A stretch of 46,357 nt of DNA from assembly GCA_029226975.1 (NCBI GenBank), contig JAQXZB010000112.1, forward strand, positions 1-46,357, given 5' to 3'. The notes beneath the pieces were generated by a model. It ran no database searches and had not been told where the DNA came from. It worked only from the letters and a program-made list of their open reading frames with translations. This DNA comes from Clostridiales bacterium. Lineage in GTDB: Bacteria > Bacillota > Clostridia > UBA1381. Position numbers and translations under genes: made by a program. The first letter of the stretch is position 1, and every line of letters starts with the position of its first letter. Shown here piece by piece: positions 31,305 through 44,398 of this stretch.

Positions 31305-32528
31305 ATGATTTGTAAAAAATGCGGGGCGCAACTGCCCGATGAAGCACAAAAATGCGAATTTTGCGGGGAGGTTTTTGTTGAAGAGCCTACTCAGAAGATA
31401 GATATAAACAAACCGGAGGAACAGTCTGCCGACGGGGCTGAGGAAAAGCAGCGCTCAACCCATGAAATATTTGAAGAAAATGCAAGAAAGCGCAAAATGC
31501 AGGTCGATAAGGCAAAGGACGAAAGACAACAGCAGCTTGAGGAAATAACCGAAAGGCGCAACGCAAAAAAACAGCGCCAAAAGAGAAATAAGATAATATT
31601 GATTGTCTGCCTGTGCGTGGCTGTTGTCGCGGCGGCAGGCGTGGGAACATATTTTGTCAGAAACGGAGGACTTAACATAGGCGGCGATACGGTTATATCA
31701 ACGCCCAATCCCTCGGTTTCGCCCATTCCGACCATTGCACCGGTGGCAACACCGACTGCGGTACCGGGAGAAACTCCGGCGCCTGAAAACAGTCAGAGTG
31801 CCGAGCAAAACGGAGAAAGCACAAACTGGACGGCAACCGGCGGCGGTAATTCATCATCGGGAAGCACCTCGTCGGGAACAAGCACATCGGGTACTTCATC
31901 GGGAAGTGCTTCGTCCTCAAACGGCTCGTCCTCGAACAGCTCATCGGGCGGCACCTCGTCCGGAGCAGGTACGTCGGGTCAAGCTTCGTCGTCGGGAACA
32001 AGCGCTAAAAACTCCGGCGCGGTGACAAATAATATAACCGCAAAGCTTGCAGTGGGCGGTCAGGTTATAAACGATGCCGCTTCGGGAAAAAGTCTTATGA
32101 CCTTTATTATAAATGATACAACCTATTATGCAAATGTTTCCGCGGGCAGCACCACCGAGCAGATAAAGGGCAAGCCCATGACCGTTACAGCAACGCCCAC
32201 AAGCGCGCGCTATAACGGAAATACGGTTTATGAGATAACAACGCTCACTTACTATGAGGGTGATTACATTCTGCCAAATTCGGGAACAAAGCTGATTACA
32301 AAAGCGGAAATTCAAAATCTGTCAAAGGAACAGCTCGGTTTGGCGAGAAATGAGATATATGCTCGTCACGGCAGAAAATTCCAGATGCAGGAATACCAAA
32401 AGTATTTCGAGTCAAAGTCATGGTACAAGGTAAATCCCAACTATGATTACAGTGACGATAATAAAAATCTCAACGAAACAGAGCTAAAGAATGTGGAAAC
32501 AATTTTGGCGGTGGAAAACGCTAAATAA
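31305..32528 (+). CDS. Membrane-anchored zinc-ribbon protein with YARHG domain
   Basis: 407 residues. An N-terminal zinc ribbon (MICKKCGAQLPDEAQKCEFC; Cys 3, 6, 17, 20) is followed by a charged coiled-coil-like region, a transmembrane helix (about 95-117), a Pro/Thr segment, a Ser/Gly/Thr linker of about 60 residues, a small beta domain, and a C-terminal YARHG domain (ARNEIYARHGRKFQMQEYQK). The ribbon should be cytoplasmic and the YARHG part outside the membrane. YARHG domains are extracellular modules thought to act in cell-wall contact. Start at 31305 has GGAGG 9 bases upstream; an earlier in-frame start at 31257 is less likely. Function unknown. Confidence 0.88.
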   Translation: MICKKCGAQLPDEAQKCEFCGEVFVEEPTQKIDINKPEEQSADGAEEKQRSTHEIFEENARKRKMQVDKAKDERQQQLEEITERRNAKKQRQKRNKIILIVCLCVAVVAAAGVGTYFVRNGGLNIGGDTVISTPNPSVSPIPTIAPVATPTAVPGETPAPENSQSAEQNGESTNWTATGGGNSSSGSTSSGTSTSGTSSGSASSSNGSSSNSSSGGTSSGAGTSGQASSSGTSAKNSGAVTNNITAKLAVGGQVINDAASGKSLMTFIINDTTYYANVSAGSTTEQIKGKPMTVTATPTSARYNGNTVYEITTLTYYEGDYILPNSGTKLITKAEIQNLSKEQLGLARNEIYARHGRKFQMQEYQKYFESKSWYKVNPNYDYSDDNKNLNETELKNVETILAVENAK

Positions 32529-32539
32529 GGGGTTTATGC

Positions 32540-32563
32540 AAAAAGCGCCATAGGCGCTTTTTT
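32540..32563 (+). terminator. Terminator before the agr region
   Basis: AAAAAGCGCC (32540-32549), loop ATA, GGCGCTTTTT (32553-32562). It separates the YARHG gene from the first response regulator; no promoter was found between it and that gene, so some readthrough is likely. Confidence 0.85.
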
Positions 32564-32591
32564 GCGGTTTTGCTTGTGGGGAGGAAAAAAT

Positions 32592-33320
32592 ATGAAGCTC
32601 AATGTCGCGGTTTGCGATGATAATGAGGATTATCTAAAAAGGCTCATGGAAAGAGTGGGGGAGGTGCTTTCGGCATCTGGCTGTGAGTACAGCGTCTGCG
32701 GTTTTTCAAATGCCGATGAAATGCTCCTTGCGGTTGGGGAAAATCCTTTTAATATAGTTTTATCCGATGTGGAAATGCCGGATATGAACGGCTTTGAAAT
32801 GAAGGACAGGCTCTATGATATATGCCCGGACGCATATGTGATTTTTGTGACCGCCCATCAGGAATTGGCGTATCAGTCATATATGCACCGTCCGTATTGG
32901 TTTTTGAGTAAAAAGGATATTGATAAGCTTGACGATGTGCTCAGTGAGCTTGCAAGAAAAATACTGTATCTTGGTGAAACGGATGTGGCAATTAAAACCT
33001 CCTCCGGGCGCAGGCGTATAATCAATGTAAAAACAACCGTATATGTCACAACTCATAAAAACTACATAATCGTCCATGACAGCTGTGGGGAAACCTCATC
33101 TTTTCGGGGTACCATAAAGGATACATATCAGATATTAAAGCAGTGGGGCTTTATCTATATCAAAAACGGATATATAGTCAACTGCCGTTTCATTGCCGGC
33201 TTTAACTGCCGCTGGGTTACATTGTCTGACGGAACAAAAATATCCGTAACCAAGGACGAGGAAAAATTTGATGAGGCTGTGAAGCTGTATTCCAAATTTA
33301 AAAGGGAGATGAGTATGTGA
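32592..33320 (+). CDS. LytTR-family response regulator, agr system 1 (AgrA-like)
   Basis: 242 residues. Receiver domain 1-120 with acidic pair D9-D10, phospho-acceptor D59 (LSDVEMPDMNGFEM) and the conserved Lys near FLSKKD. The C-terminal LytTR DNA-binding domain (about 135-235; VYVTTHKNYIIVHDS, GFIYIKNGYIVNCRFI) is that of AgrA-type regulators, which bind 9-bp direct repeats one or two turns apart. The start at 32592 has GGGGAGG upstream. It is translationally coupled with the kinase gene (GTGA overlap). The paralogue at 35645 has the same arrangement. Confidence 0.93.
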   Translation: MKLNVAVCDDNEDYLKRLMERVGEVLSASGCEYSVCGFSNADEMLLAVGENPFNIVLSDVEMPDMNGFEMKDRLYDICPDAYVIFVTAHQELAYQSYMHRPYWFLSKKDIDKLDDVLSELARKILYLGETDVAIKTSSGRRRIINVKTTVYVTTHKNYIIVHDSCGETSSFRGTIKDTYQILKQWGFIYIKNGYIVNCRFIAGFNCRWVTLSDGTKISVTKDEEKFDEAVKLYSKFKREMSM

Positions 33321-34591
33321 GATTGTTTGAGTTTTCACTAAATCTTATAGATGCAGTGATGATAATGTCCTTTATAACACTGTATTTCGGCTCAAAGTAT
33401 AAGGGAGTAAAGAAGCTTTTAGGCTATGCGGCGGGAGTTGCCGCGGATTTGGGACTGACTGTTTTTTTCGACCATGTATTTGTATATGAATCCCTGTTCG
33501 CGCTTAGCTTTATGCTTTTGTATTTTATTTATGCGCTGATATTTTTAAAGGGCGATATATACAGTAAAATATTTATAGCCGGAATTACCGACTGCGTTAT
33601 ATATGCCGTAGGAACTGTGCTGCTGCTTGCCACAAGCGCAATTTCGGGACTGACCTATGAAGAAATAACGGAGTTTTCAACAGTGCGGGTGATATTTTGC
33701 GCCGCCGATAAGGTGGTTTTGCTTGCGGTCTACGCAATACTGCTTAAATTTAAAATAAAGAATATTTCTCCCGGTAAAAGCGCGGTGGTGTTCGTTATGC
33801 TGCCGCTGGCTTCCGAAATGTGCCTTAATGAAATTACAAACGTGTTTGTGGCACATACTGATTTGAGAAACGATTTGCTCGTAACCTTAGGCAGTGTGGT
33901 TATGATAATGATACTTACCTATTATATGATTATCAATATGAGCCGAAGCGAACAGCTTAAATCGGAAAACGCGGCTCTGCGCCAAAAGCTGTATTCGGAC
34001 AGCGAACACGCCCGCGAAATTACGGTTATGTATACAAAGCTGTGCGCTCTGCGCCATGATTTGGAAAGCTATTTCAGAAACGCCGTAACCTATATGCGGG
34101 AGGACCCCGTCAAAGCCGAGGAATATATGCAGTCACTGGTGGAAAATGAGCTGGCTGTAAAGGATATATTCATCAACACCGGCAATAAATGCTTGGATTC
34201 GCTGATAAACAGTAAGGTGTCGGCGTGTGTAGAACGCGGAATACATGTTGAACTCAAGATTATGCGTAATGCTCTGTATAAGTTTACCGATGATGAATTG
34301 GGTGTGATTTTCGGTAATTTGTTCGATAATGCCATAAGAGCCTCAAAGGACTCAAAGAAAAAAATAATAAAGGTCTTGGCCGACAGACAGGATGATATTG
34401 TTTCGATACTTATGCTAAATTCTATAGATGAGCCGGTGCTTAAAAGCAATTGTGAGCTTGAAACCACAAAGCCCGATAAGGACCATCACGGCTACGGAAT
34501 AAAAAATATACGCAGTATAGTTAAAAAACATAACGGCGTGATAAACCTCTTTGAAGAGGACGGTTATTTCGGGTTTCATATCTGGATATGA
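33317..34591 (+). CDS. AgrC-like sensor histidine kinase, agr system 1
   Basis: 424 residues, GTG start. The N-terminal 205 residues contain about six transmembrane helices, the peptide-sensing part in AgrC. A coiled coil (210-235) leads to the phospho-acceptor His247 in CALRHDLESYF, then the GHKL ATPase with N-box GNLFDNAIRAS and G-box GYGIKNIRSIV. It should sense the peptide made by agrB1/agrD1 at the membrane and phosphorylate D59 of the adjacent regulator. Confidence 0.92.
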   Translation: MRLFEFSLNLIDAVMIMSFITLYFGSKYKGVKKLLGYAAGVAADLGLTVFFDHVFVYESLFALSFMLLYFIYALIFLKGDIYSKIFIAGITDCVIYAVGTVLLLATSAISGLTYEEITEFSTVRVIFCAADKVVLLAVYAILLKFKIKNISPGKSAVVFVMLPLASEMCLNEITNVFVAHTDLRNDLLVTLGSVVMIMILTYYMIINMSRSEQLKSENAALRQKLYSDSEHAREITVMYTKLCALRHDLESYFRNAVTYMREDPVKAEEYMQSLVENELAVKDIFINTGNKCLDSLINSKVSACVERGIHVELKIMRNALYKFTDDELGVIFGNLFDNAIRASKDSKKKIIKVLADRQDDIVSILMLNSIDEPVLKSNCELETTKPDKDHHGYGIKNIRSIVKKHNGVINLFEEDGYFGFHIWI

Positions 34592-34614
34592 CCGTATCTG
34601 TCAAAAAAAACGTC

Positions 34615-34679
34615 AAACCGTCACAAAAAATGCAAAACCGTCACAACAGTGTTGATTTTGCATTTTTTTATGCTATAAT
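34615..34679 (+). promoter_or_regulatory. agrB1-agrD1 promoter with LytTR-type direct repeats
   Basis: AAACCGTCACAA occurs at 34615-34626 and again at 34635-34646, a 20-base period. Directly downstream is TTGATT (34652-34657), 16 bases, TGC-TATAAT (34674-34679). Read on the minus strand the repeat is TTGTGACGGTTT, similar to the TTGTGTAAGTTTT repeat before agrB2 at 37680. Regulator binding is inferred. The second copy also forms part of a hairpin with T run at 34625-34669. Confidence 0.7.
34625..34669 (+). terminator. Terminator overlapping the agrB1 operator and -35
   Basis: AAAAAATGCAAAA (34625-34637) pairs with TTTTGCATTTTTT (34656-34668), with an inner CAC/GTG pairing. It can end the kinase-1 transcript. 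Its left arm covers the second direct repeat and its right arm the -35 hexamer of the agrB1 promoter. Confidence 0.6.
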
Positions 34680-34708
34680 AAAATTATAGGAAGGATATGG
34701 TAATTGCT

Positions 34709-35299
34709 ATGGAACATTTGTCGGTATTTTTTGTGGATTTGCTCATTAAAAAGGGAGTGGCTGACGAATCCAAAAGGGAAAGATATATAGGCGGTATGCA
34801 GTTGGTTCTGGCGGATATAATAAATATTTCACTGGTACTGCTTATAGGAATTTTTACAAAATCCCTGCTGTATTCGGCGGTCTATCTTGCTATGATGATG
34901 CTTGTGCGCAAATTCAGCGGCGGGTTTCATGCAAAGACATATTGGCTGTGCCGTTTGGTGACTGTCGGTACATATGTGCTGATATTTTTGATGAGTATCA
35001 TAATACATAAGCACAAATTACTGCTGACAGTTATATTTAACGCGGCTGCGTTTGCAACAATGCTTTTGTTTGCGCCGGTGCAAAATCCAAACAGAAGGCT
35101 GACAACGGCGGAAATAAAGGTAAATAAAGTCCTTGCCTTGCTGTCGACCCTGATATTTTCCTTGGCGTCCGTATTGCTCAGTGCTAAGGGATATAATTTG
35201 GGGTTCGTCATATCAATAATTTTGCTTGCCATAACCGTAATGATGTATGCGGGAATGGCAGTAAACGGGAAAAGAGGTGAAAATGATGGGATTGTTTAG
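34709..35299 (+). CDS. agrB: AgrB-like peptide-processing membrane protease, agr system 1
   Basis: 196 residues. The catalytic pair of AgrB cysteine proteases is in FSGGFHAKTYWLC: His74 and Cys81, spaced exactly as H77 and C84 of S. aureus AgrB. About five membrane helices follow the AgrB layout. AgrB cuts the C-terminal tail of AgrD and forms the (thio)lactone ring. The start at 34709 matches agrB2; an ATG at 34697 is only two bases from the Shine-Dalgarno AGGAAGG, while 34709 is 14 bases from it, so the start is uncertain. Overlaps agrD1. Confidence 0.92.
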   Translation: MEHLSVFFVDLLIKKGVADESKRERYIGGMQLVLADIINISLVLLIGIFTKSLLYSAVYLAMMMLVRKFSGGFHAKTYWLCRLVTVGTYVLIFLMSIIIHKHKLLLTVIFNAAAFATMLLFAPVQNPNRRLTTAEIKVNKVLALLSTLIFSLASVLLSAKGYNLGFVISIILLAITVMMYAGMAVNGKRGENDGIV

Positions 35300-35468
35300 T
35301 TCATTCTTTGCAGGCTTTGCCAGCTATCTTGAAGACATTTATCTGGATTCATACGGATTTGCTTCAAAGAGCGCCGCATATGAGCCGGAAATGACCGAGG
35401 ACAAGGCAGAGTACAGAAATACTCATACCTCAAAGCTGGAAAAGCTTTACACAAAGCTTGCCCGCTAA
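35286..35468 (+). CDS. agrD: AgrD-like autoinducer precursor 1, cysteine-free
   Basis: 60 residues, starting inside agrB1 with GAGG 8 bases upstream. The N-terminal 25 residues are hydrophobic/amphipathic (MGLFSSFFAGFASYLE), followed by the segment GFASKSAAYEPEMTED and a charged C-terminal tail of 25 residues. It aligns with agrD2 around (F/L)AS-x-S-x-x-(Y/H)-(E/Q)PE. By analogy with C. perfringens AgrD, where the ring is a Cys plus four residues before HQPEEP, the ring here would be Ser27-Lys-Ser-Ala-Ala. There is no Cys anywhere in the peptide, so a lactone would replace the usual thiolactone. An upstream ATG at 35283 is an equal start choice. Confidence 0.72.
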   Translation: MGLFSSFFAGFASYLEDIYLDSYGFASKSAAYEPEMTEDKAEYRNTHTSKLEKLYTKLAR

Positions 35469-35473
35469 GACAC

Positions 35474-35615
35474 ATAAGGGCAAAACTCCCGATGCCGTAG
35501 GTTTAAATAAAAGGTCGTGATATTCTATTTATTTAATTTTGCCCTTATAATTGAAACAGAACGCCGCTTCAAATCCTTTTTAGCTTTTTGTGGATTTGGG
35601 GCGGCGCGCTTTTTA
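35474..35615 (+). other. Paired hairpins between agrD1 and the second regulator
   Basis: The spacer of 176 bases contains a perfect 12-bp inverted repeat ATAAGGGCAAAA (35474-35485) and TTTTGCCCTTAT (35537-35548) 51 bases apart, and then a long stem CGCCGC..CAAATCC against GGATTTG..GCGGCG (35562-35606) followed by CGCTTTTT. The second may be a terminator or attenuator for the regulator-2 genes. No promoter is evident. Confidence 0.5.
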
Positions 35616-35644
35616 CGCAAATATAAACGGATAGGAGATAACCG

Positions 35645-36364
35645 ATGCTTAAAATTGCAATATGTGACGATAATGAGGAAATGCTCAAGGAAATTGAAAA
35701 TATAATCATGGACAGTGTCAGTCAAAAACTCGAGGAATGTGAAATAATAAGGCTCGGCAGCGGAGCGGAGCTTGCCGATTACTGCAAACGCATTAAAACC
35801 GACTGCATTGTTGCAGATATAGATATGCCCGGAATGAACGGCTTTGAAGCAGTGCGTGAGGTGCAGAAGATTTATCCCGATATACCGGTGATATTTGTGA
35901 CCGCGCACACAGAGTATGCCATTCAGGCGTATGATTATCAGCCGTTTTGGTTTGTGAGGAAAACGCATTTGAATGACCTGTATAGGGTTATGGAAAGATT
36001 TTTTATAAAAAAAGCAATAGAGCGTGAGAAAATTTCCGGGCTTATGCAACTGAAAATTAAAAACGAAGTGACCGAAATAAATGTAAATACAGTCCGCTTT
36101 GTTTCTTCATATAAACATTATATAATTATTCATGATACGGATATGGGAGATGTGCGGCTGCGCTGTTCGATTGCCGAGATAGAAAAGCAGCTTGATGCAC
36201 TGCATTTTGTCAGAGTGCAGAGGGGCATTATCGTAAACTGCCGCTTTATTAAAAAGATAACAAGCCGGGACGTTATTTTATCAGATGACAGTGTTGTGCA
36301 TATAAGCCGCGACAGGCTCGATAATGTGAGAAATGCTTTTCAGGATTTTTGGAGGTACAGATGA
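35645..36364 (+). CDS. LytTR-family response regulator, agr system 2 (AgrA-like)
   Basis: 239 residues, paralogue of 32592-33320. Receiver domain with D8-D9 and phospho-acceptor D58 in VADIDMPGMNGFEA; conserved TAHTEYAIQAYDYQPFWFVRK; LytTR domain at about 130-235 (FVRVQRGIIVNCRFIKK). ATG with AGGAG 8 bases upstream. Its stop overlaps the kinase start by 4 bases (ATGA). Expected to bind the direct repeats before agrB2. Confidence 0.93.
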   Translation: MLKIAICDDNEEMLKEIENIIMDSVSQKLEECEIIRLGSGAELADYCKRIKTDCIVADIDMPGMNGFEAVREVQKIYPDIPVIFVTAHTEYAIQAYDYQPFWFVRKTHLNDLYRVMERFFIKKAIEREKISGLMQLKIKNEVTEINVNTVRFVSSYKHYIIIHDTDMGDVRLRCSIAEIEKQLDALHFVRVQRGIIVNCRFIKKITSRDVILSDDSVVHISRDRLDNVRNAFQDFWRYR

Positions 36365-37656
36365 AAGGACATATATTTGAAATTATAGTCAATCTGATAG
36401 AAACCTTTATCATGATTGATTTTATAACACGCTATTTCGGCTGTAAATACAGCGACAGCCGAAGAATATGGGGCTTTATGGGCGTGTGGATGCTTTCCTT
36501 TGCTGAGCTTTGTACCGTAAATTACATAATCCCCTTTGAGGGTGCGGCGGCGTGTATACCGATAGCATTTTATTTTGTGTACGCATTGCTGTTTTTGGAG
36601 GGCGGTGTGCTGATGAAGCTGTGGATTTCGGCAATGACCGAAGCCATAACCGTTGTAATTGCCATAGGTACAAATCTGGCAATATGTACGCTGATAGATT
36701 ATGATCCCAATGCAATGATTACGGTTTTTAATCCCGTAAGAATTACCGGCGTGGCGATAACAAAGATACTGCTCTTTTATGTAACCCGGATTATACTGAA
36801 ATATAAGCGCAGTCCCCGTATGGATAAAAATACCTGGTGTATGCTGATACTTATGCCGATAATAACGGTCATTTCGCTAAGCTCCCTTATGATAGCTGCA
36901 ATCAATCATGATGAGATTATGGGTTTTATCCTTATAGGAATGGCGGGAATAATTGCAGCGGACGCAGTGACCTATTATTTCTTTGTCATGCAGGACAGAA
37001 ATTATCGCAATATGCTTAAAATGCGGCTGTTGGAAATGGAAAAGGACAATGCCCAAAAGAGTGTGGAAAATATTGAAACCTTTGTGTCGCAGATAAAATC
37101 GGTAAGACATGATATAAACAATCAGCTTGTTGTTATAAGAGGGTATATATACGATAACAACAATCAGCAGGCAATAGACTATTTGAATAAGCTGATAGAC
37201 GAGTATTTGCCGAAGAGGCAGGAGTTTATACAAAGTGAAAACAATACCTTTAACGCCATAGTAAACTCCAAAATAGCCGAATGTAATCAGAAAAATATTT
37301 ATATAGATGTGGCATTTCAGAAAAATGCACTGGCGGGCATGGACGATATTGATATGGTAATTCTGCTTGGAAATCTGCTTGACAACGCCATAGAAGCGGC
37401 ACAAAACAGCCGGGAACGCAAAATAAGTATGGACATACAGCGAAAAGGAGAATACACCTCTGTAACGATTACAAACAGCATAAATAAATCAGTCCTCAAA
37501 AATAACGAAAGTCTTAGCACAACAAAGGCGGACAACGCAAATCATGGAATAGGAACAAAAAACATTAAAAAGGTAGTAAAAAAGTACAACGGAATGATAA
37601 GATTTTTCGAAGAAAACGAAAAGGATTTTTGCTGTGACGTGCTGATTGTGGCATGA
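36361..37656 (+). CDS. AgrC-like sensor histidine kinase, agr system 2
   Basis: 431 residues from the ATG at 36361, which has GGAGG 5 bases upstream. Six or seven N-terminal membrane helices (to about residue 210), a coiled coil (215-240), phospho-acceptor His250 in KSVRHDINNQLVVIRGY, N-box LGNLLDNAIEAAQNS and G-box HGIGTKNIKKVVKKYNG. Same organisation as kinase 1; the sensor regions are diverged, as expected if each binds a different peptide. Confidence 0.92.
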   Translation: MKGHIFEIIVNLIETFIMIDFITRYFGCKYSDSRRIWGFMGVWMLSFAELCTVNYIIPFEGAAACIPIAFYFVYALLFLEGGVLMKLWISAMTEAITVVIAIGTNLAICTLIDYDPNAMITVFNPVRITGVAITKILLFYVTRIILKYKRSPRMDKNTWCMLILMPIITVISLSSLMIAAINHDEIMGFILIGMAGIIAADAVTYYFFVMQDRNYRNMLKMRLLEMEKDNAQKSVENIETFVSQIKSVRHDINNQLVVIRGYIYDNNNQQAIDYLNKLIDEYLPKRQEFIQSENNTFNAIVNSKIAECNQKNIYIDVAFQKNALAGMDDIDMVILLGNLLDNAIEAAQNSRERKISMDIQRKGEYTSVTITNSINKSVLKNNESLSTTKADNANHGIGTKNIKKVVKKYNGMIRFFEENEKDFCCDVLIVA

Positions 37657-37658
37657 GC

Positions 37659-37729
37659 TGTGTAAGTTATGTCGCAAATTGTGTAAGTTTTGCCACCCCT
37701 CTTGAAATTGAAAAAAAGTGTGATACAAT
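37659..37729 (+). promoter_or_regulatory. agrB2-agrD2 promoter with LytTR-type direct repeats
   Basis: TGTGTAAGTT occurs at 37659-37668 and 37680-37689, a 21-base period typical of LytTR-regulator sites. A promoter follows: TTGAAA (37702-37707), 16 bases, TACAAT (37724-37729) with TGA before the -10. The repeat resembles the minus-strand form of the agrB1 repeat. Binding is inferred. Confidence 0.7.
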
Positions 37730-37756
37730 GTAAGTAACAGAGAGGTGGTGGGATAT

Positions 37757-38335
37757 ATGGATAAGATAGCGGAAGGGATAACTGCTTATTATGTAAAAAA
37801 ACATTATATCCCGGAGGACAAAAAGGATATATACTGTTATGGATTTAAGCTTATATTAGCAGATATAATAAACTTTTCGATTGTTATACTGCTTGGTATA
37901 TTGCTCGGAAAAGTAACGGCAAGTATCTTGTTTTTGCTTACACTTTGTACTGTGCGCATATTCAGCGGAGGGTTTCACTCAAAAAGCTTTTGGCTTTGCA
38001 GATTATCCATGCTGATAACTTTTGCAGGGGTACTGCTTGTGTCGGAAGTGATAAATACAACTGCGTATGATAATGTGATAATATGCGCACTAAATATTGT
38101 GTGTATAATCATTATCGGGATTCTGGCACCCGTACCGCATCCGAATAAGCGGTTAAGTGATGAGCAGAAAGTAAAAAACAAGAAAAAGGCAATAATAATA
38201 TCCTTTGTTCTATCAGTCATAGCATTTATATCTGCTGTTATGGGATATGACTGGGGAAGTGTTATATCCGCGGCCTTAGCGGCAGTTGTAATTCTTATGA
38301 TTGCAGGTCTCGTAATAATGAAAGGGGGTAAATGA
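37757..38335 (+). CDS. agrB: AgrB-like peptide-processing membrane protease, agr system 2
   Basis: 192 residues. Catalytic His74 and Cys81 in FSGGFHSKSFWLC at the same positions as AgrB1. Several membrane helices; C-terminal tail is basic. The start at 37757 has GAGGTGG 8 bases upstream; a GTG 12 bases earlier overlaps that site. Ends two bases before agrD2. Confidence 0.94.
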   Translation: MDKIAEGITAYYVKKHYIPEDKKDIYCYGFKLILADIINFSIVILLGILLGKVTASILFLLTLCTVRIFSGGFHSKSFWLCRLSMLITFAGVLLVSEVINTTAYDNVIICALNIVCIIIIGILAPVPHPNKRLSDEQKVKNKKKAIIISFVLSVIAFISAVMGYDWGSVISAALAAVVILMIAGLVIMKGGK

Positions 38336-38336
38336 T

Positions 38337-38492
38337 ATGTTCAACTGGATTTGCGGCTTGTTTATGAGCACAACTGCGGATGCGGCTCTTGAAGTGGCGA
38401 TATATTCGGCAGGGTTAGCGTCAACAAGCGGTATGCATCAGCCGGAAGAACCCGAAAATCTACAGGCAGTAGCCCGTAAATACAGAAAGTAG
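38337..38492 (+). CDS. agrD: AgrD-like autoinducer precursor 2, serine at ring position
   Basis: 51 residues, with AAGGGGG upstream. Sequence features: N-terminal amphipathic part with a single Cys6, then SAGLASTSGMHQPEEPENLQ, matching the AgrD C-terminal recognition motif HQPEEP of clostridial AgrD, and a basic end (ARKYRK). By alignment with C. perfringens AgrD the ring would be Ser29-Thr-Ser-Gly-Met, a five-residue lactone. Cys6 lies in the leader and is not in ring position. Too short for common ORF cut-offs. Confidence 0.8.
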   Translation: MFNWICGLFMSTTADAALEVAIYSAGLASTSGMHQPEEPENLQAVARKYRK

Positions 38493-38508
38493 GGTTAAAA
38501 TCTCAATT

Positions 38509-38553
38509 TTGCCGTGGTATATACCACGGCAAGGAATACATACTGTATTCCTT
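38509..38553. repeat. Two adjoining perfect hairpins after agrD2
   Basis: TTGCCGTGGTAT/ATACCACGGCAA (38509-38532) is a perfect 24-base palindrome; AAGGAATACA/TGTATTCCTT (38531-38553) follows at once with a three-base loop. There is no T run, so they are not simple terminators; they may stabilise the agr mRNA 3' end or be an RNA processing or protein-binding site. Confidence 0.55.
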
Positions 38554-38640
38554 GCAAACAAACATATAAAAGCAAAATCAAAATTAAAATCCATAGGTTA
38601 AGGCAAAATAAATTTTGCTCTTATATACCAAAGAAAAAAA

Positions 38641-38717
38641 CAAAAAAAGAGAGCCCCTCCGAATCTGCTTAAGAAACTCACAACCTCTTGACTGATTTGG
38701 AGCGGGACACCCTTACA
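38641..38717 (-). ncRNA. Probable small RNA on the minus strand
   Basis: Minus-strand unit: promoter 38751-38723, expected start near 38717, a stem GCTCCAAATC (38702-38693) against GATTCGGAG (38664-38656) with one G-T pair, then GGGCTCTC and a T-rich tail with T7 at 38642-38648. Length about 75 bases. No coding sequence. It resembles, in layout, antisense RNAs of type I toxin systems, but no toxin reading frame was found nearby. The 331-base gene-free interval 38493-38823 otherwise holds only the hairpins above. Confidence 0.55.
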
Positions 38718-38722
38718 GAAAC

Positions 38723-38751
38723 ATTATATCACAAAATAATACGCGTGTAAA
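38723..38751 (-). promoter_or_regulatory. Promoter of the minus-strand small RNA
   Basis: On the minus strand TTTACA (38751-38746), 17 bases, TATAAT (38728-38723). The spacer ends in TGTGA. A good sigma-A promoter with no gene downstream except the putative small RNA. Confidence 0.65.
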
Positions 38752-38823
38752 GTACTGTAAGAGAGATTTTTTGTTTTTGATTGTAAAAATGTGAAATTTA
38801 TTATTGAAAAGGAGAGAAAATTT

Positions 38824-40485
38824 ATGAAAACGAACAAAATAATTTCTGCCGTACTGGCAGGCGCAATGCTTTTTTCAAGCGCGTATTCACTGGCATTTGC
38901 AGAGGGTGACGAGGTTGTATACACATACACAAACGAGGACGGCGAAACTGTAAATATTACGCAGTCGCAGCTTGACGCGGAACATTGGAATAAGGATGCT
39001 TTGGGAGATGAAATTCCGGCGATTTATGAAGATTTTCCGATGAGCATAGATAGTTATATAAATGATTTTGCTCAATTGTCTTTAGATATTGAGTATATGA
39101 AAGAAATTGAGGATATGGATTCCGTAACTTTCAGAATAACCGATATGCAATCAGGAACAGATGTTTGTAATATGCAACTTACAAATTATAGTATATATTC
39201 GCCGGCATTGGAAACAGGCAAAAATTACGAAATATGCCTTACGGAAGTATTAGATGGAGTTGTTTCGGAATATATGAAAGGGGTGACTGTTTCTAAAGTA
39301 ACATCGGATATAAATAGTGTTGCGAATTTTAATAATATAGCTGATGAACGTAATATTCTTATTGCCGATACTGATGTATTAAGAAATGGCATGACAGTTA
39401 ACGAACAAGGACAATTAGTCGTTGATGCTAGTGTTGCTAAATATGATAAGGTGAGCGTAAATGATTTTTATGACTATATAGATGCTTTGCCGGAAAACAA
39501 AACATACAGACTTTATATGAATGACAGTGGCGAGCAATATTCGGGTTTTATTTCAACGGATGATCAGAGAGAAATATATACTCTTGAAGTGAATTCCTTT
39601 AATATAATTATGCCGTTTGAGGATACGTCACTTATAACACAGTGTGATGCAATTACAAATGTATCTGCATTAAGTAATGTGAATAATTTGGATTTGACAG
39701 ATTCGTTTTTTAGAATAAATAGTCCATCAAGCCTTAATGCTGCATATAAGGCATATAAGTTATCTGTACCGCAGACAGCAATTGAAAATTGGGTTACAAA
39801 TGGCGACGATGCCCAATTTAGAGCAAAAGTGACCGGCAATTCACAAATAAGGGTAAAGTATTGGGTGTCATTTAACGGAACAGTACAAAGTACAACAACA
39901 AGAACATCCACGAGCAATAATATCATTAGTTTTACATATACTTTAAGCAATTATGATTATATAGGGAATAACAGTGATTATGTGGATTTGTATTTTATGG
40001 TGTATTTTCCACAGACAGTATCAGGTACAGGAATGATTAATTTTTCTGGAATGGATGGATATGTTGATGATGTAACCGGGTCGGTGTACGAAGCATATAT
40101 CGGATCATCTCCTATAAGCTTAAGCAATACTGAATATAATTTAACAGATTCATGGGATGTTGATGCTTTTCATATTGAAACAGAAAATACAGGAGTATAT
40201 AAAATTGAATTTAGAAACAGAAGTTTGGCGGCACAGACGCAAATGGAATCTGGAACGTGGGTCAATGGAGAGCCTGAAAAAACAATAACAGGATGGAGTG
40301 TAGTAACTTCAAACGGAGTTGTTACATGGAGTGACTACGCTGTTTACAGTTTACAAAAAAACCAAGATATAATTCTATACAAACAGGGTAATGAGGCTCC
40401 CAATGTATTAACAATTAGAAATAAGTCATTAGGATACTACGATGCTAAGCCCTATCAGATTTCTTATACGTTTATTCCACAATAA
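38824..40485 (+). CDS. Secreted protein of unknown function
   Basis: 553 residues. Signal peptide 1-26 (cleavage after AFA), then an extracellular, mostly beta-type protein with acidic composition and no domain I recognise; two cysteines (CNMQ, CLTE) lie near residues 115-140. The C-terminal part (from about 440) has a jelly-roll-like pattern (SLSNTEYNLTDSWDVDAFHI...). The sequence is visibly more A/T-rich than the housekeeping genes, with codons such as ATA, AAT and GAA favoured, which suggests acquisition. ATG with AAGGAG 10 bases upstream. It follows the agr region and precedes two surface proteins. Confidence 0.8.
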   Translation: MKTNKIISAVLAGAMLFSSAYSLAFAEGDEVVYTYTNEDGETVNITQSQLDAEHWNKDALGDEIPAIYEDFPMSIDSYINDFAQLSLDIEYMKEIEDMDSVTFRITDMQSGTDVCNMQLTNYSIYSPALETGKNYEICLTEVLDGVVSEYMKGVTVSKVTSDINSVANFNNIADERNILIADTDVLRNGMTVNEQGQLVVDASVAKYDKVSVNDFYDYIDALPENKTYRLYMNDSGEQYSGFISTDDQREIYTLEVNSFNIIMPFEDTSLITQCDAITNVSALSNVNNLDLTDSFFRINSPSSLNAAYKAYKLSVPQTAIENWVTNGDDAQFRAKVTGNSQIRVKYWVSFNGTVQSTTTRTSTSNNIISFTYTLSNYDYIGNNSDYVDLYFMVYFPQTVSGTGMINFSGMDGYVDDVTGSVYEAYIGSSPISLSNTEYNLTDSWDVDAFHIETENTGVYKIEFRNRSLAAQTQMESGTWVNGEPEKTITGWSVVTSNGVVTWSDYAVYSLQKNQDIILYKQGNEAPNVLTIRNKSLGYYDAKPYQISYTFIPQ

Positions 40486-40527
40486 ATTTAGGAATAGCTA
40501 TAAAATAATAAAAGGAGGATGTATTCT

Positions 40528-42270
40528 ATGAAAAAAAATATAAGCTTTTTAATGGTAGTAATAAGTGTTGTAATATGCATGCTACCATCTGCAAAAGCTG
40601 CAGAATATGAAGAAAAGGACGGATTTATATATATAAAAGGTACAAATATAATAACAAGATATGTGGGTACGTCCTCCGAGGTGCGTATTCCGGATAATAC
40701 AAAACTTGATTTTAATTTTGATTTAGCAAACAGAAGAAAAACAGAAGATAATGGATGGCAGATTGATGACTTTGTAAGGAAACTTACGATAGGGAACAAT
40801 GTACAATATGATGGAAGAACATTAAGCATGGCGGTTAATCAATATTCTAACATAGAAGAAATTATTTTTGAAGAAGGCATATCATATATACCGGATTACA
40901 CAGGTCAGGGATGGAGTACTATAAAAAATATTTCATTTCCCGATACATTGGAATCAATCGGAGCATATGCATTTTCGGATTATGAAAATGATAACAAAGG
41001 TGCACCGCAGATAGAATCCTTATACATACCGAACTCTGTATTGAAGATAGGGGAACGTGCTTTTAAAGGGTGTGAGGAACTAAAAGAGCTGCACCTATCT
41101 GAAAAACTGCAGACTATGGGTGAAAATGCCTTTATGCGCGTCAATACAAACTCGGTTAATTTGCCTATCAATTTGAATACAGGCGAGGTTACTGCAGTTG
41201 TTCAAGCTAAAGAATATATTTTCGGAGATATGACGGCAAAAATATATAAAGCTTTATGGTTTACAGATTGGATCAAGGAGAAATATCTAAAAGGCTTGAC
41301 AGGAAAGAACATGGGAGAGTATGAGGACTTTATTATACTTGACAATGTTTTGTGTAAATATATAGGTGCTGATCCAAATCCAATTATACCGCAGGAGGTT
41401 AAGGAAATATGTCCGGGTGCTTTTGAACGATGTAATATTAAAACGGTTGTGTTGCCGGAGGACATTAAAGAAATACCGTTGAGATGCTTTTATGAATCAA
41501 AATTAGAAGAAATTAAAATTCCGGAGAGCGTAGAAACAATAGGAGCTGCATCATTTGTTGGAACAAAAATAAAGAAGTTAACTATTCCTAAATCTGTAAA
41601 AAATATAGCTACAACATTTGCTGAAAGATGCATAGAACTTGAAGAGGTTACGTTTGAGGGGGCACCGAAGATGGGGGTGTTTTTTCAGGATTCATACAAG
41701 CTGAAAAAAGAAAATGTGCATTTTTTAGACAGCAGTATTGTTGTGCCGGATGAATTTTGGGGTTTTTTAGAAATAGATAGCATTCTAACAATAATACCGA
41801 CCCAAAAGCCGGACAGCACCGCAAGCCCGACCCAATCCCCAAAGCCAACAGCCGCGCCCACCACAGCGCCTACGGCAACACCCACCGCCGTACCGACGGC
41901 AACACCGACACCGGAGGAGAAGCATATTGATGTTTCGTCCAAAGGGGGTGATGTGGAGCTTGTAATCAATTCCCGGGCGGTGCATTTTCCGGACGCAAAG
42001 CCGTTTATAGATGAATCGGACAGAACTCAAATCCCCATCAGGGTTTTGTCGGAGCTTCTGGGTTTTGAGGTCAAATGGGAGGAAGAAAGCCATACGGCAG
42101 TATTAACTCGCGAAAATACTGTTATAACCGTTAAAATAGGTGATAAGCACATTACCAAAAACGGCAACCCCATAGAAATGGACACCGAAGCCAAAATAAT
42201 CGGTGACAGAACATATATCCCCTTACGTTTTATCGCCGAGGCTCTCGGCTGCACCGTTGAGTGGAAATGA
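40528..42270 (+). CDS. Surface LRR protein with copper-amine-oxidase-like C-terminal domain (1)
   Basis: 580 residues. Signal peptide 1-22. BspA-type leucine-rich repeats (LRR_5) from about 95 to 410, with units like LYIPNSVLKIGERAFKGCEE and IKIPESVETIGAASF, then a Pro/Thr linker (AAPTTAPTATPTAVP) and a C-terminal copper amine oxidase N-terminal-like domain (about 475-580; IPIRVLSELLGFEVKWEEES, YIPLRFIAEALGCTVEW). Such proteins bind host or wall polymers. The start at 40528 has GGAGG 9 bases upstream; an ATG at 40519 touches that site. The 3' end is nearly identical to that of the next gene. Confidence 0.9.
   Translation: MKKNISFLMVVISVVICMLPSAKAAEYEEKDGFIYIKGTNIITRYVGTSSEVRIPDNTKLDFNFDLANRRKTEDNGWQIDDFVRKLTIGNNVQYDGRTLSMAVNQYSNIEEIIFEEGISYIPDYTGQGWSTIKNISFPDTLESIGAYAFSDYENDNKGAPQIESLYIPNSVLKIGERAFKGCEELKELHLSEKLQTMGENAFMRVNTNSVNLPINLNTGEVTAVVQAKEYIFGDMTAKIYKALWFTDWIKEKYLKGLTGKNMGEYEDFIILDNVLCKYIGADPNPIIPQEVKEICPGAFERCNIKTVVLPEDIKEIPLRCFYESKLEEIKIPESVETIGAASFVGTKIKKLTIPKSVKNIATTFAERCIELEEVTFEGAPKMGVFFQDSYKLKKENVHFLDSSIVVPDEFWGFLEIDSILTIIPTQKPDSTASPTQSPKPTAAPTTAPTATPTAVPTATPTPEEKHIDVSSKGGDVELVINSRAVHFPDAKPFIDESDRTQIPIRVLSELLGFEVKWEEESHTAVLTRENTVITVKIGDKHITKNGNPIEMDTEAKIIGDRTYIPLRFIAEALGCTVEWK
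41850..42270 (+). repeat. 421-bp direct repeat, copy 1
   Basis: Covers the Pro/Thr linker and C-terminal domain of the first LRR gene. It is collinear without gaps with 43978-44398, with roughly twenty single-base differences seen by eye, many silent. Points to recent duplication or gene conversion between the two genes. Confidence 0.85.
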
Positions 42271-42289
42271 ATTACAAGGAGAATGAGTT

Positions 42290-44398
42290 ATGAAAAAAAT
42301 TTTATCCTTATTGATAATATGCGCATTGGCGGCATCAAGCGTTGTTTTTGCCCAAGATAACGGCGAAAACGTATATAAAGACCCTAACGGCTACAGTATA
42401 CGCTATGTACCCAACGGTGACGGTATCGAAATTACAAAATGTATTTTTGAGAAAAACAGAGCGTTGGTAATTCCAAAGGAAATAGACGGCAAAAAGGTTA
42501 ATTCGCTTGCCTGCGAATTTGTCGGAGACGGGTTTGAATCGGTGGAAATTCAGGCGGATATAACCGAGATAATGGATATGACTCTGACATTTAACAATAC
42601 CGTTAAAAAAATTGTACTGAATGAGGGCTTAAAAAAGATAGGTTGGAGCTTTGCAAACAATAATACCGCTTTGACAGAGGTTGTTTTGCCGAGTACACTG
42701 GAGGAGATGGCGGTTGGGTGTTTCAGTGAGTGTCCCAAGCTTAACAAAGTAAAAATACCTGATAATCTGAATAAAATAGGCAACGGTGCATTTTCCTTTT
42801 GTTCATCACTTACGGATATTGAATGGGATATGACCGCGGACGAATGCGGTAGGGATTTTGCAAAAAAAACACCGTGGCTTGCCGAATACGGAAAAACGCA
42901 TGAGTGGCTTGCCATTAACAACGGCAGTTATATTGTGAGTTATGTCGGACAAGGCGGAAGTATCGAAGTACCCAAGTCTGAAAAAATCAATTATGGCGTA
43001 TGTATAGATAACACAACCATAACCGAAGTTACCTCTGTATACGGAGTGCCGGACGGTATGTTCATACGCTGTGAAAACCTAAAGTCCGCAAATATTATAA
43101 GTGGAGAGCTGTCGGATCATGCATTTGCCGAATGCAGTGCTTTAAGCGAGATTAATCTGCCACAGGATATTGAGGTTATTCCAAGTGCTGCTTTTTATTG
43201 CTGTAAATCACTTAAAAGCTTTGACTTTCCTCAAAAGCTTAAAATAATAAACAGTGCTGCTTTCCAGGGCAGCGGTCTTGAAAATGTGCGGGTGCCGGAG
43301 GGTGTAGCCGAAATCGGGTCAAGTGCGTTTGAGTATTGCAACAGCCTTACAAGCATACATTTTCCCTCTACTCTTACATATCTGGGCAAAAGTGCGGTAT
43401 ACGGCTGTGAAAAGCTCATAAGCGCAAACATTCCGGACGGTGTAAAGGATTCATTGCAGGCTACGTTTTGGTACTGCAATTCCCTTGAAAATGTGGAATG
43501 TTCGGAAATGACAAAAAGCATTTACAATGCAACTGCAAAAACTCCATGGAATGAAAAATATGCGGCTGAAAACATGGATAAAAATTCCGAATTTTTCATT
43601 GTGGGGGACGAACTGAAAAAATATAACGGAACGGACAGGAATCCGATTATACCTGATGGAGTAAAGATTATATGCGGAAGTGCATTTGATAATGCGAAAA
43701 TAGACAGTGTGGTTTTTCCTGCCGGTCTTGAAGAAATTCAAGGCGGAGCATTTTATATGTCTGAGATTAGGGAAGTAATAATACCCAAAAGTGTAAAAAG
43801 TATAGGAAGTCTTGCCTTTGGCGAATGTCATAAGCTTGAAAGCGTTGAAATTCAATGCGATTGTTCTATACCCTCGCATACATTTGAAAATTGCACCGCG
43901 CTGAAAAATGAAAATGTCAAATTGACGGGAAAAGCCAAGATTGCTTCCGATGCGTTTCCTTTCAAGCGAGAAAATATAGCCGCGCCCACCACAGTGCCTA
44001 CGGCGGCACCCACCGCCGTACCGACGGCAACATCGACACCGGAGGAGAAGCATATCGATGTTTCGTCCAAAGGGGGTGATGTGGAGCTTGTAATCAATTC
44101 CGAAACGGTGCATTTTCCGGACGCAAAGCCGTTTATAGATGAATCGGACAGAACTCAAATCCCCATCAGGGTTTTGTCGGAGCTTTTAGGCTTTGAGGTC
44201 AAATGGGAGGAAGAAAGCCATACGGCAGTATTAACTCGCGAAAATACTGTCATAACCGTTAAAATAGGTGATAAGCACATTACCAAAAACGGAACACCCA
44301 TAGAAATGGACACCGAAGCCAAAATAATCGGTGACAGAACATACATCCCCTTACGTTTTATCGCCGAGGCTCTCGGCTGCACCGTTGAGTGGAAATAG
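42290..44398 (+). CDS. Surface LRR protein with copper-amine-oxidase-like C-terminal domain (2)
   Basis: 702 residues. Signal peptide 1-21 (VVFA). Longer BspA-type LRR region (about 95-560; LPSTLEEMAVGCFSECPKLN, VPEGVAEIGSSAFEYCNS), a short Pro/Thr linker (APTTVPTAAPTAVPTATSTP) and the same C-terminal domain as the preceding protein. ATG with AAGGAG 7 bases upstream. Starts 19 bases after the stop of the first LRR gene; both and probably 38824-40485 form one unit. Confidence 0.9.
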   Translation: MKKILSLLIICALAASSVVFAQDNGENVYKDPNGYSIRYVPNGDGIEITKCIFEKNRALVIPKEIDGKKVNSLACEFVGDGFESVEIQADITEIMDMTLTFNNTVKKIVLNEGLKKIGWSFANNNTALTEVVLPSTLEEMAVGCFSECPKLNKVKIPDNLNKIGNGAFSFCSSLTDIEWDMTADECGRDFAKKTPWLAEYGKTHEWLAINNGSYIVSYVGQGGSIEVPKSEKINYGVCIDNTTITEVTSVYGVPDGMFIRCENLKSANIISGELSDHAFAECSALSEINLPQDIEVIPSAAFYCCKSLKSFDFPQKLKIINSAAFQGSGLENVRVPEGVAEIGSSAFEYCNSLTSIHFPSTLTYLGKSAVYGCEKLISANIPDGVKDSLQATFWYCNSLENVECSEMTKSIYNATAKTPWNEKYAAENMDKNSEFFIVGDELKKYNGTDRNPIIPDGVKIICGSAFDNAKIDSVVFPAGLEEIQGGAFYMSEIREVIIPKSVKSIGSLAFGECHKLESVEIQCDCSIPSHTFENCTALKNENVKLTGKAKIASDAFPFKRENIAAPTTVPTAAPTAVPTATSTPEEKHIDVSSKGGDVELVINSETVHFPDAKPFIDESDRTQIPIRVLSELLGFEVKWEEESHTAVLTRENTVITVKIGDKHITKNGTPIEMDTEAKIIGDRTYIPLRFIAEALGCTVEWK
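43978..44398 (+). repeat. 421-bp direct repeat, copy 2
   Basis: Second copy, at the 3' end of the larger LRR gene. The upstream LRR parts of the two genes are not similar at the DNA level, so only this cassette is shared. Confidence 0.85.

Follow-up and report, generated by a model that had tools for sequence, protein, structure and literature searches.

The 46,357-nucleotide stretch analysed here (the window: contig JAQXZB010000112.1, positions 1 to 46,357, of the Clostridiales bacterium assembly GCA_029226975.1, lineage UBA1381) carries two tandem agr-type cassettes, each ordered agrA-agrC-agrB-agrD, and the AgrD precursors of both have a serine at the position from which the peptide ring would be closed. 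We consider it probable (about 0.78) that these are two self-contained signalling cassettes making five-residue Ser lactones, the autoinducing peptides AIP-1 and AIP-2. In the proposed pathway, the catalytic Cys of AgrB would cut AgrD behind the core, and the conserved Ser with which the ring begins would take up the acyl group, yielding a lactone of Ser27-Lys-Ser-Ala-Ala in AIP-1 and of Ser29-Thr-Ser-Gly-Met in AIP-2. A conserved Gly-x-Ala just before this Ser suggests a signal-peptidase-like cut between Ala and Ser, which would leave rings with no exocyclic tail. Either AIP would then act on its own upstream kinase, and the LytTR regulator of that kinase would bind cassette-specific repeats before agrB and drive agrBD.

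Both precursors are encoded by small open reading frames (ORFs) directly adjoining agrB on the same strand; all genes and sites of the two cassettes lie on the forward strand. AgrD1 (35286..35468; 60 amino acids; MGLFSSFFAGFASYLEDIYLDSYGFASKSAAYEPEMTEDKAEYRNTHTSKLEKLYTKLAR) overlaps agrB1 by 14 nt, has the ribosome site AGAGGTG and is free of Cys from every in-frame start, including the alternatives at 35277 and 35283. AgrD2 (38337..38492; 51 amino acids; MFNWICGLFMSTTADAALEVAIYSAGLASTSGMHQPEEPENLQAVARKYRK) starts one base past the end of agrB2, and its only Cys is Cys6 in the leader, which is not conserved in the related loci L005, L053 and L084 and was rejected as a ring residue. The original prediction had described the two peptides in just this way, with no Cys at the ring site and a Ser there instead, five residues ahead of the tail motif (YEPE in AgrD1, HQPE in AgrD2), and this description holds. 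Read in fixed register, from the YEP motif in AgrD1 and from HQPEEP in AgrD2, the predicted rings occupy residues 27 to 31 (35364..35378) and 29 to 33 (38421..38435), respectively. The Ser at ring position 1 is invariant in nine AgrD1-type and five AgrD2-type sequences, more than expected by chance, and further AgrD members beyond these also keep it. The second Ser of each core was also considered as the nucleophile and set aside, as it is absent from relatives. Neither peptide belongs to the thiolactone class, which has Cys at ring position 1, because both have Ser there.

Further evidence on the role of this Ser comes from 74 AgrB-linked AgrDs read in fixed register from the tail motif, regardless of residue. 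The site five residues before the motif is Cys in 53%, Ser in 35% and Thr in 3%, so that these three residues together account for 91%, while at any other ring or leader site they reach at most 49%. Six of the seven exceptions allow a reading with a ring of six or seven residues, and the seventh lies beside a broken agrB. In one clade, where agrD precedes agrB, near relatives exchange Cys (CLING, CIVNG), Ser (SLANG, STMNG, SSVNG) and Thr (TVMNG, TPING) at this one site. Cys, Ser and Thr are the residues that can form a thioester or an ester, and a site limited to them is best explained as that of the ring-closing nucleophile; together with the invariant Ser this makes an AgrB-made lactone the best reading. 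The Ser-lactone prediction for AIP-1 and AIP-2, with the cores SKSAA and STSGM as originally proposed, is thus well supported by homologues and by the restricted site.

Several published peptides have the predicted chemistry. The closest is that of Clostridium thermocellum AgrD (Clo1313_2818), a Ser25-Phe29 lactone pentapeptide with a predicted cut at A24|S25 that was confirmed by liquid chromatography-tandem mass spectrometry and whose linear form was inactive (PMC5322536). It shares with the window's peptides the class Clostridia, the Ser nucleophile, a five-residue ring followed by Tyr, the Ala|Ser boundary and the lack of an exocyclic tail. However, its gene does not lie beside agrB, agrC or agrA, its ring ends in Phe and one such peptide is reported, whereas the products of the window are predicted. 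In Staphylococcus pseudintermedius/intermedius, AgrB makes the five-residue Ser lactone RIPT[STGFF], which is sensed through agrC/agrA (PMC3673130, PMC12312760), but the gene order there is agrBDCA, the exocyclic tail has four residues and the ring ends in hydrophobic residues. The agr2 locus of Clostridioides difficile (agrB2D2C2A2; listed AIP NSA[SSWVA]) is likewise clostridial, has an agrC/agrA pair of its own and begins its ring with Ser (PMC12312760); as described there, it differs in gene order, in the exocyclic tail NSA and in its hydrophobic ring residues. In the Enterococcus faecalis fsr system, an AgrB homologue produces the gelatinase biosynthesis-activating pheromone, QN[SPNIFGQWM], likewise a Ser lactone (PMC12312760) but with a nine-residue ring, and fsrD lies in a different frame of fsrB.

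The predicted tail-less rings also bring in the alternative that survives best. A lactone with a free N-terminal Ser could be an intermediate that undergoes an O-to-N acyl shift, so that a head-to-tail homodetic cyclic pentapeptide would be the lasting signal. The conserved G-x-A|S boundary suggests rings of the kind that could react in this way, and tail-less thiolactones of Listeria do rearrange by the corresponding S-to-N shift (PMC11297923); for a synthetic lactone analogue of the Listeria peptide, 22 h at 37 C and pH 7.0 left 48% rearranged by O-to-N shift and 36% hydrolysed (PMC11297923). Nevertheless, the N-terminal cut in the window's AgrDs is itself a prediction, and culture of C. thermocellum is reported to hold the lactone itself (PMC5322536), and we regard a homodetic end product as possible but unlikely. 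A broader scheme is more speculative still: a dedicated all-Ser branch in Clostridia might make small, polar, tail-less lactone pentapeptides that turn by O-to-N shift into head-to-tail rings serving as timed or second signals, with the long, conserved follower helix of AgrD1 conferring AgrB specificity and related clades making Thr lactones.

The small, polar character of the rings is one feature that sets this type apart. The rings include SKSAA, SRGGM, SRGGI, SRSGS, STSGM, STGGA and SSNGM, and in a looser set with G-x-A-S (n=21) the share of bulky hydrophobic residues per ring position after the first is 0.36, compared with 0.71 in Cys rings and 0.70 in other Ser rings. Short, small and polar cores, unlike the hydrophobic rings of most other AgrDs sampled, would also suit peptides that AgrB processes and that are released as linear pheromones, with the conserved Ser serving for recognition only. 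Acceptance of Cys, Ser and Thr alone in unrelated AgrD types suits a nucleophile better than a recognition residue, however, and with the inactivity of the linear C. thermocellum peptide in mind we consider linear signals improbable.

Certain observations weigh against two Ser-lactone signals. The studied AIPs mostly end in bulky hydrophobic residues, so that receptor binding by such small polar rings may differ. AgrD1 is without the second tail Pro and its follower is unusually long, and the structure model of AgrD1 is of low confidence, with a mean predicted local distance difference test (pLDDT) score of 64.5. The lactone product, the cut site and the receptor response are predictions from sequence, and the proposed A|S cut draws on the motif and a single precedent.

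AgrD1 belongs to a family of related precursors. A profile of its relatives found strong homologues in eight other genomes of the same family (nine of 70 including the window's, in five genera) and none in other families of the order. The nine AgrD1-type sequences have G24, A26, S27, Y32, E33, P34, S49 and E52 in common, and AgrD1 shares these invariant residues with homologues at 28 to 40% identity. Their conserved follower spans 29 to 30 residues after the ring, compared with a median of 14 (range, 9 to 22) in other pairs. Relative to the family model TIGR04223 (quorum_AgrD), the follower of AgrD1 is about twice as long and the second Pro is missing in most AgrD1-type members; five of the nine match the model at E values up to 1 (best, 1.7e-7), with the cut-off not checked for each member. 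The structure model places a helix at residues 3 to 29, an interruption that spans YEPE and the greater part of the ring, and helices at 38 to 47 and 50 to 59, and it is too uncertain for use beyond this helix-break-helix outline. The string GFAS occurs twice in AgrD1, at residues 10 to 13 (35313-35324) and 24 to 27 (35355-35366), and the tail motif follows the second only. An orphan AgrD1-like ORF (SMGFVSQGFEYQPKMS...STLEKVYS) was found on the reverse strand of locus L197 (G196:C2:2733-2891), with no agrB within the 3.1 kb examined. AgrD2 matches TIGR04223 (21.6 bits; cut-off, 19). Five AgrD2-type sequences have G26, A28 and S29 invariant, and in one further member Asp replaces the Gly while the Ser is kept; members are spread over several families within the class.

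Could one or both cassettes be decayed, or leftovers that no longer signal? Tandem duplicates can decay, and AgrD1 alone matches no family model, but all eight cassette genes are intact with their catalytic motifs, AgrD1 keeps the invariant residues of its family and each cassette has its own promoter repeats, which makes this explanation very improbable. In the first cassette, an AgrA1-like response regulator with receiver and LytTR domains (32592..33320; PF00072, 2.5e-12; PF04397, 7.1e-06) is followed by an AgrC1-like histidine kinase (33317..34591; PF14501, 2.5e-18) with five hydrophobic segments, the H-box LRHDLE in its HD box, a GHKL ATPase and a weak match to NF046015 AgrC. AgrB1, the peptidase/cyclase (34709..35299; PF04647, 9.4e-33, 113.6 bits), has its His74 and Cys81 in GGFHAKTYWLC. 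The second cassette consists in the same way of an AgrA2-like receiver-LytTR regulator (35645..36364; PF00072, 2.3e-17; PF04397, 8.3e-13), an AgrC2-like kinase (36361..37656; PF14501, 1.9e-20) with six hydrophobic segments and the H-box VRHDIN, in which the HD box is kept, and the peptidase/cyclase AgrB2 (37757..38335; PF04647, 4e-40, 137.6 bits) with GGFHSKSFWLC. Both AgrBs score far above the gathering cut-off of 23, have the catalytic GG-x-H-x6-C and five hydrophobic segments, and are the sole AgrBs of the assembly. Thus two polytopic GHKL kinases and two LytTR regulators are linked to two agrBD pairs, an arrangement in which each kinase would be paired with the AIP of its own cassette. An overlooked AgrD with a Cys beside agrB1 or agrB2, the finding named at the outset as one that would overturn the proposal, is extremely improbable even though small ORFs are easy to miss: on the coding strand beside either agrB, a six-frame scan covering 32300-40700 gave no ORF with both a Cys and the tail (its few pattern matches were antisense or inside other genes), and the AgrDs described have homologues at the same place in relatives.

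The promoter regions are consistent with two separately controlled cassettes. Upstream of agrB1, the direct repeat AACCGTCACAA occurs twice, 20 bp apart (34615..34646; 11/11 identical; 0/200 shuffles), and this exact pair is found once in the genome; upstream of agrB2, two copies of TGTGTAAGTTWTG stand 21 bp apart (37659..37692; 0/200 shuffles), a pair unique in the genome at up to three mismatches. They are predicted LytTR sites for AgrA1 and AgrA2, respectively, and lie in register just upstream of the -35 element of a promoter-like sequence recognized by consensus match only: TTGATT with an extended -10 TATAAT for agrB1D1 (34652..34679; 10/12 matches, TG before the -10) and TTGAAA with an extended -10 TACAAT for agrB2D2 (37702..37729). 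Most relatives also have direct repeats 20 to 22 bp apart before agrB, with a repeat sequence that differs by locus. Locus-specific repeats would be expected if LytTR sites co-vary with the regulators that bind them, and they support two separately wired autoinduction loops, in which AgrA would bind the repeats of its own cassette. A wider regulon was considered and rejected, since exact pairs occur at the agr promoters only and the remaining genome matches have three mismatches. At 34625-34668, an inverted repeat with a T run behind it overlaps the second of the LytTR-like repeats, as also seen upstream of agrB in loci L016, L018, L022, L025 and L038; the kinase-gene terminator and the agrBD promoter seem to share bases.

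In a tree of AgrBs, AgrB1 and AgrB2 fall within one 14-member clade in which every partner AgrD has Ser (Shimodaira-Hasegawa-like approximate likelihood ratio test [SH-aLRT], 95), AgrB1 in a long-follower subclade of eight (SH-aLRT, 99) and AgrB2 in a subclade of four (SH-aLRT, 98). Given these places in separate subclades of an all-Ser clade, the cassettes are sister types of long standing and did not arise by a recent duplication on the spot. Among the genomes with AgrB1-like matches are those of Candidatus Ornithomonoglobus and further uncultured Clostridia; in Lachnospiraceae bacterium MD329, an AgrB1-type AgrB (L050, 3495-4088) has no readable AgrD behind it and may mark a decayed locus. 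An apparent AgrB signature for Ser substrates, an aromatic residue four after the catalytic His, is enriched with Ser partners but was rejected as shared ancestry, as independent tree pairs gave no signal (about 1.2 with versus 1.4 against). A phage origin of the AgrB type was also discarded, with only three distant viral-contig matches, and the four plasmid relatives are all below 30% identity. A sequence search for a solved structure of an AgrB relative found none.

The cassettes may not be native to this genome. G+C drops from about 0.46 to between 0.33 and 0.42 over approximately 32000-43000, which takes in the cassettes and the secreted-protein genes behind them; it is 0.43 to 0.49 in the rest of the window. 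The window's cassettes are absent from the two congeners compared, both incomplete genomes, one of which has no AgrB match and the other a Cys-type AgrD (CSIPF). Acquisition by transfer is possible. Behind agrD2, three large predicted secreted proteins are encoded at 38833-44398, two of them with BspA-type leucine-rich repeats and a Cu_amine_oxidN1 domain; these could be targets of the signalling cassettes. The original view that two such peptides in one locus are unusual stands in part: a search of 94 further genomes of the order found none with cassettes of the AgrD1 and AgrD2 types side by side, whereas several agr loci per genome are common, with up to nine AgrB matches in one genome.

The original prediction also held that nearly all AgrD rings are closed by Cys, with a Ser lactone known in Staphylococcus intermedius, and had asked for a survey of AgrD families; here it overstated rarity and novelty, while the observation itself was correct. 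Among 115 curated AgrB-AgrD pairs, the ring site is Cys in 71, Ser in 40 and Thr in four. The 77 pairs from outside the window's family, sampled across the class, divide into 54 Cys, 21 Ser (in 11 families) and two Thr, so that Ser makes up 27 to 35% of the sampled AgrB-linked AgrDs. These counts come from loci that are partly the best-scoring ones, with the starts of six- to seven-residue rings set by eye and many loci without a readable AgrD; the AgrBs were found by a pattern requiring His-x6-Cys, which makes that pair invariant by construction. On a tree of 110 AgrBs, the Cys label changes about 12 times, at least nine of them on starred branches. Four AgrDs beside agrB (L021, L026, L135 and L156) have Thr at the ring-closing site (TVMNG, TPING, TNTIS and TNGIG), which predicts Thr-lactone AIPs; two of them belong to a clade where near relatives carry Cys or Ser. 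Loci L055 and L174, with agrD upstream of agrB, have Ser five and Cys four residues before the tail motif (SCMII, SCIIS), so that ring closure could give either a lactone of five residues or a thiolactone of four. Ser-closed rings thus have published precedents and are no rarity among Clostridia; what is new is the all-Ser clade, the small polar rings, the long follower of AgrD1, and a response regulator, a histidine kinase and LytTR-like direct repeats of its own in each cassette.

In this sample of Clostridia, about a quarter to a third of AgrB-linked signals would escape thiolactone trapping and annotation that relies on a central Cys. With two sister cassettes whose Ser rings are predicted to differ, this genome offers a natural setting for testing how AgrB accepts Ser, how AgrC recognizes polar rings and whether closure by an ester alters the lifetime of a signal. 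With the recurrent exchange of Cys, Ser and Thr on the tree, selection of thiolactone over lactone becomes a testable question.

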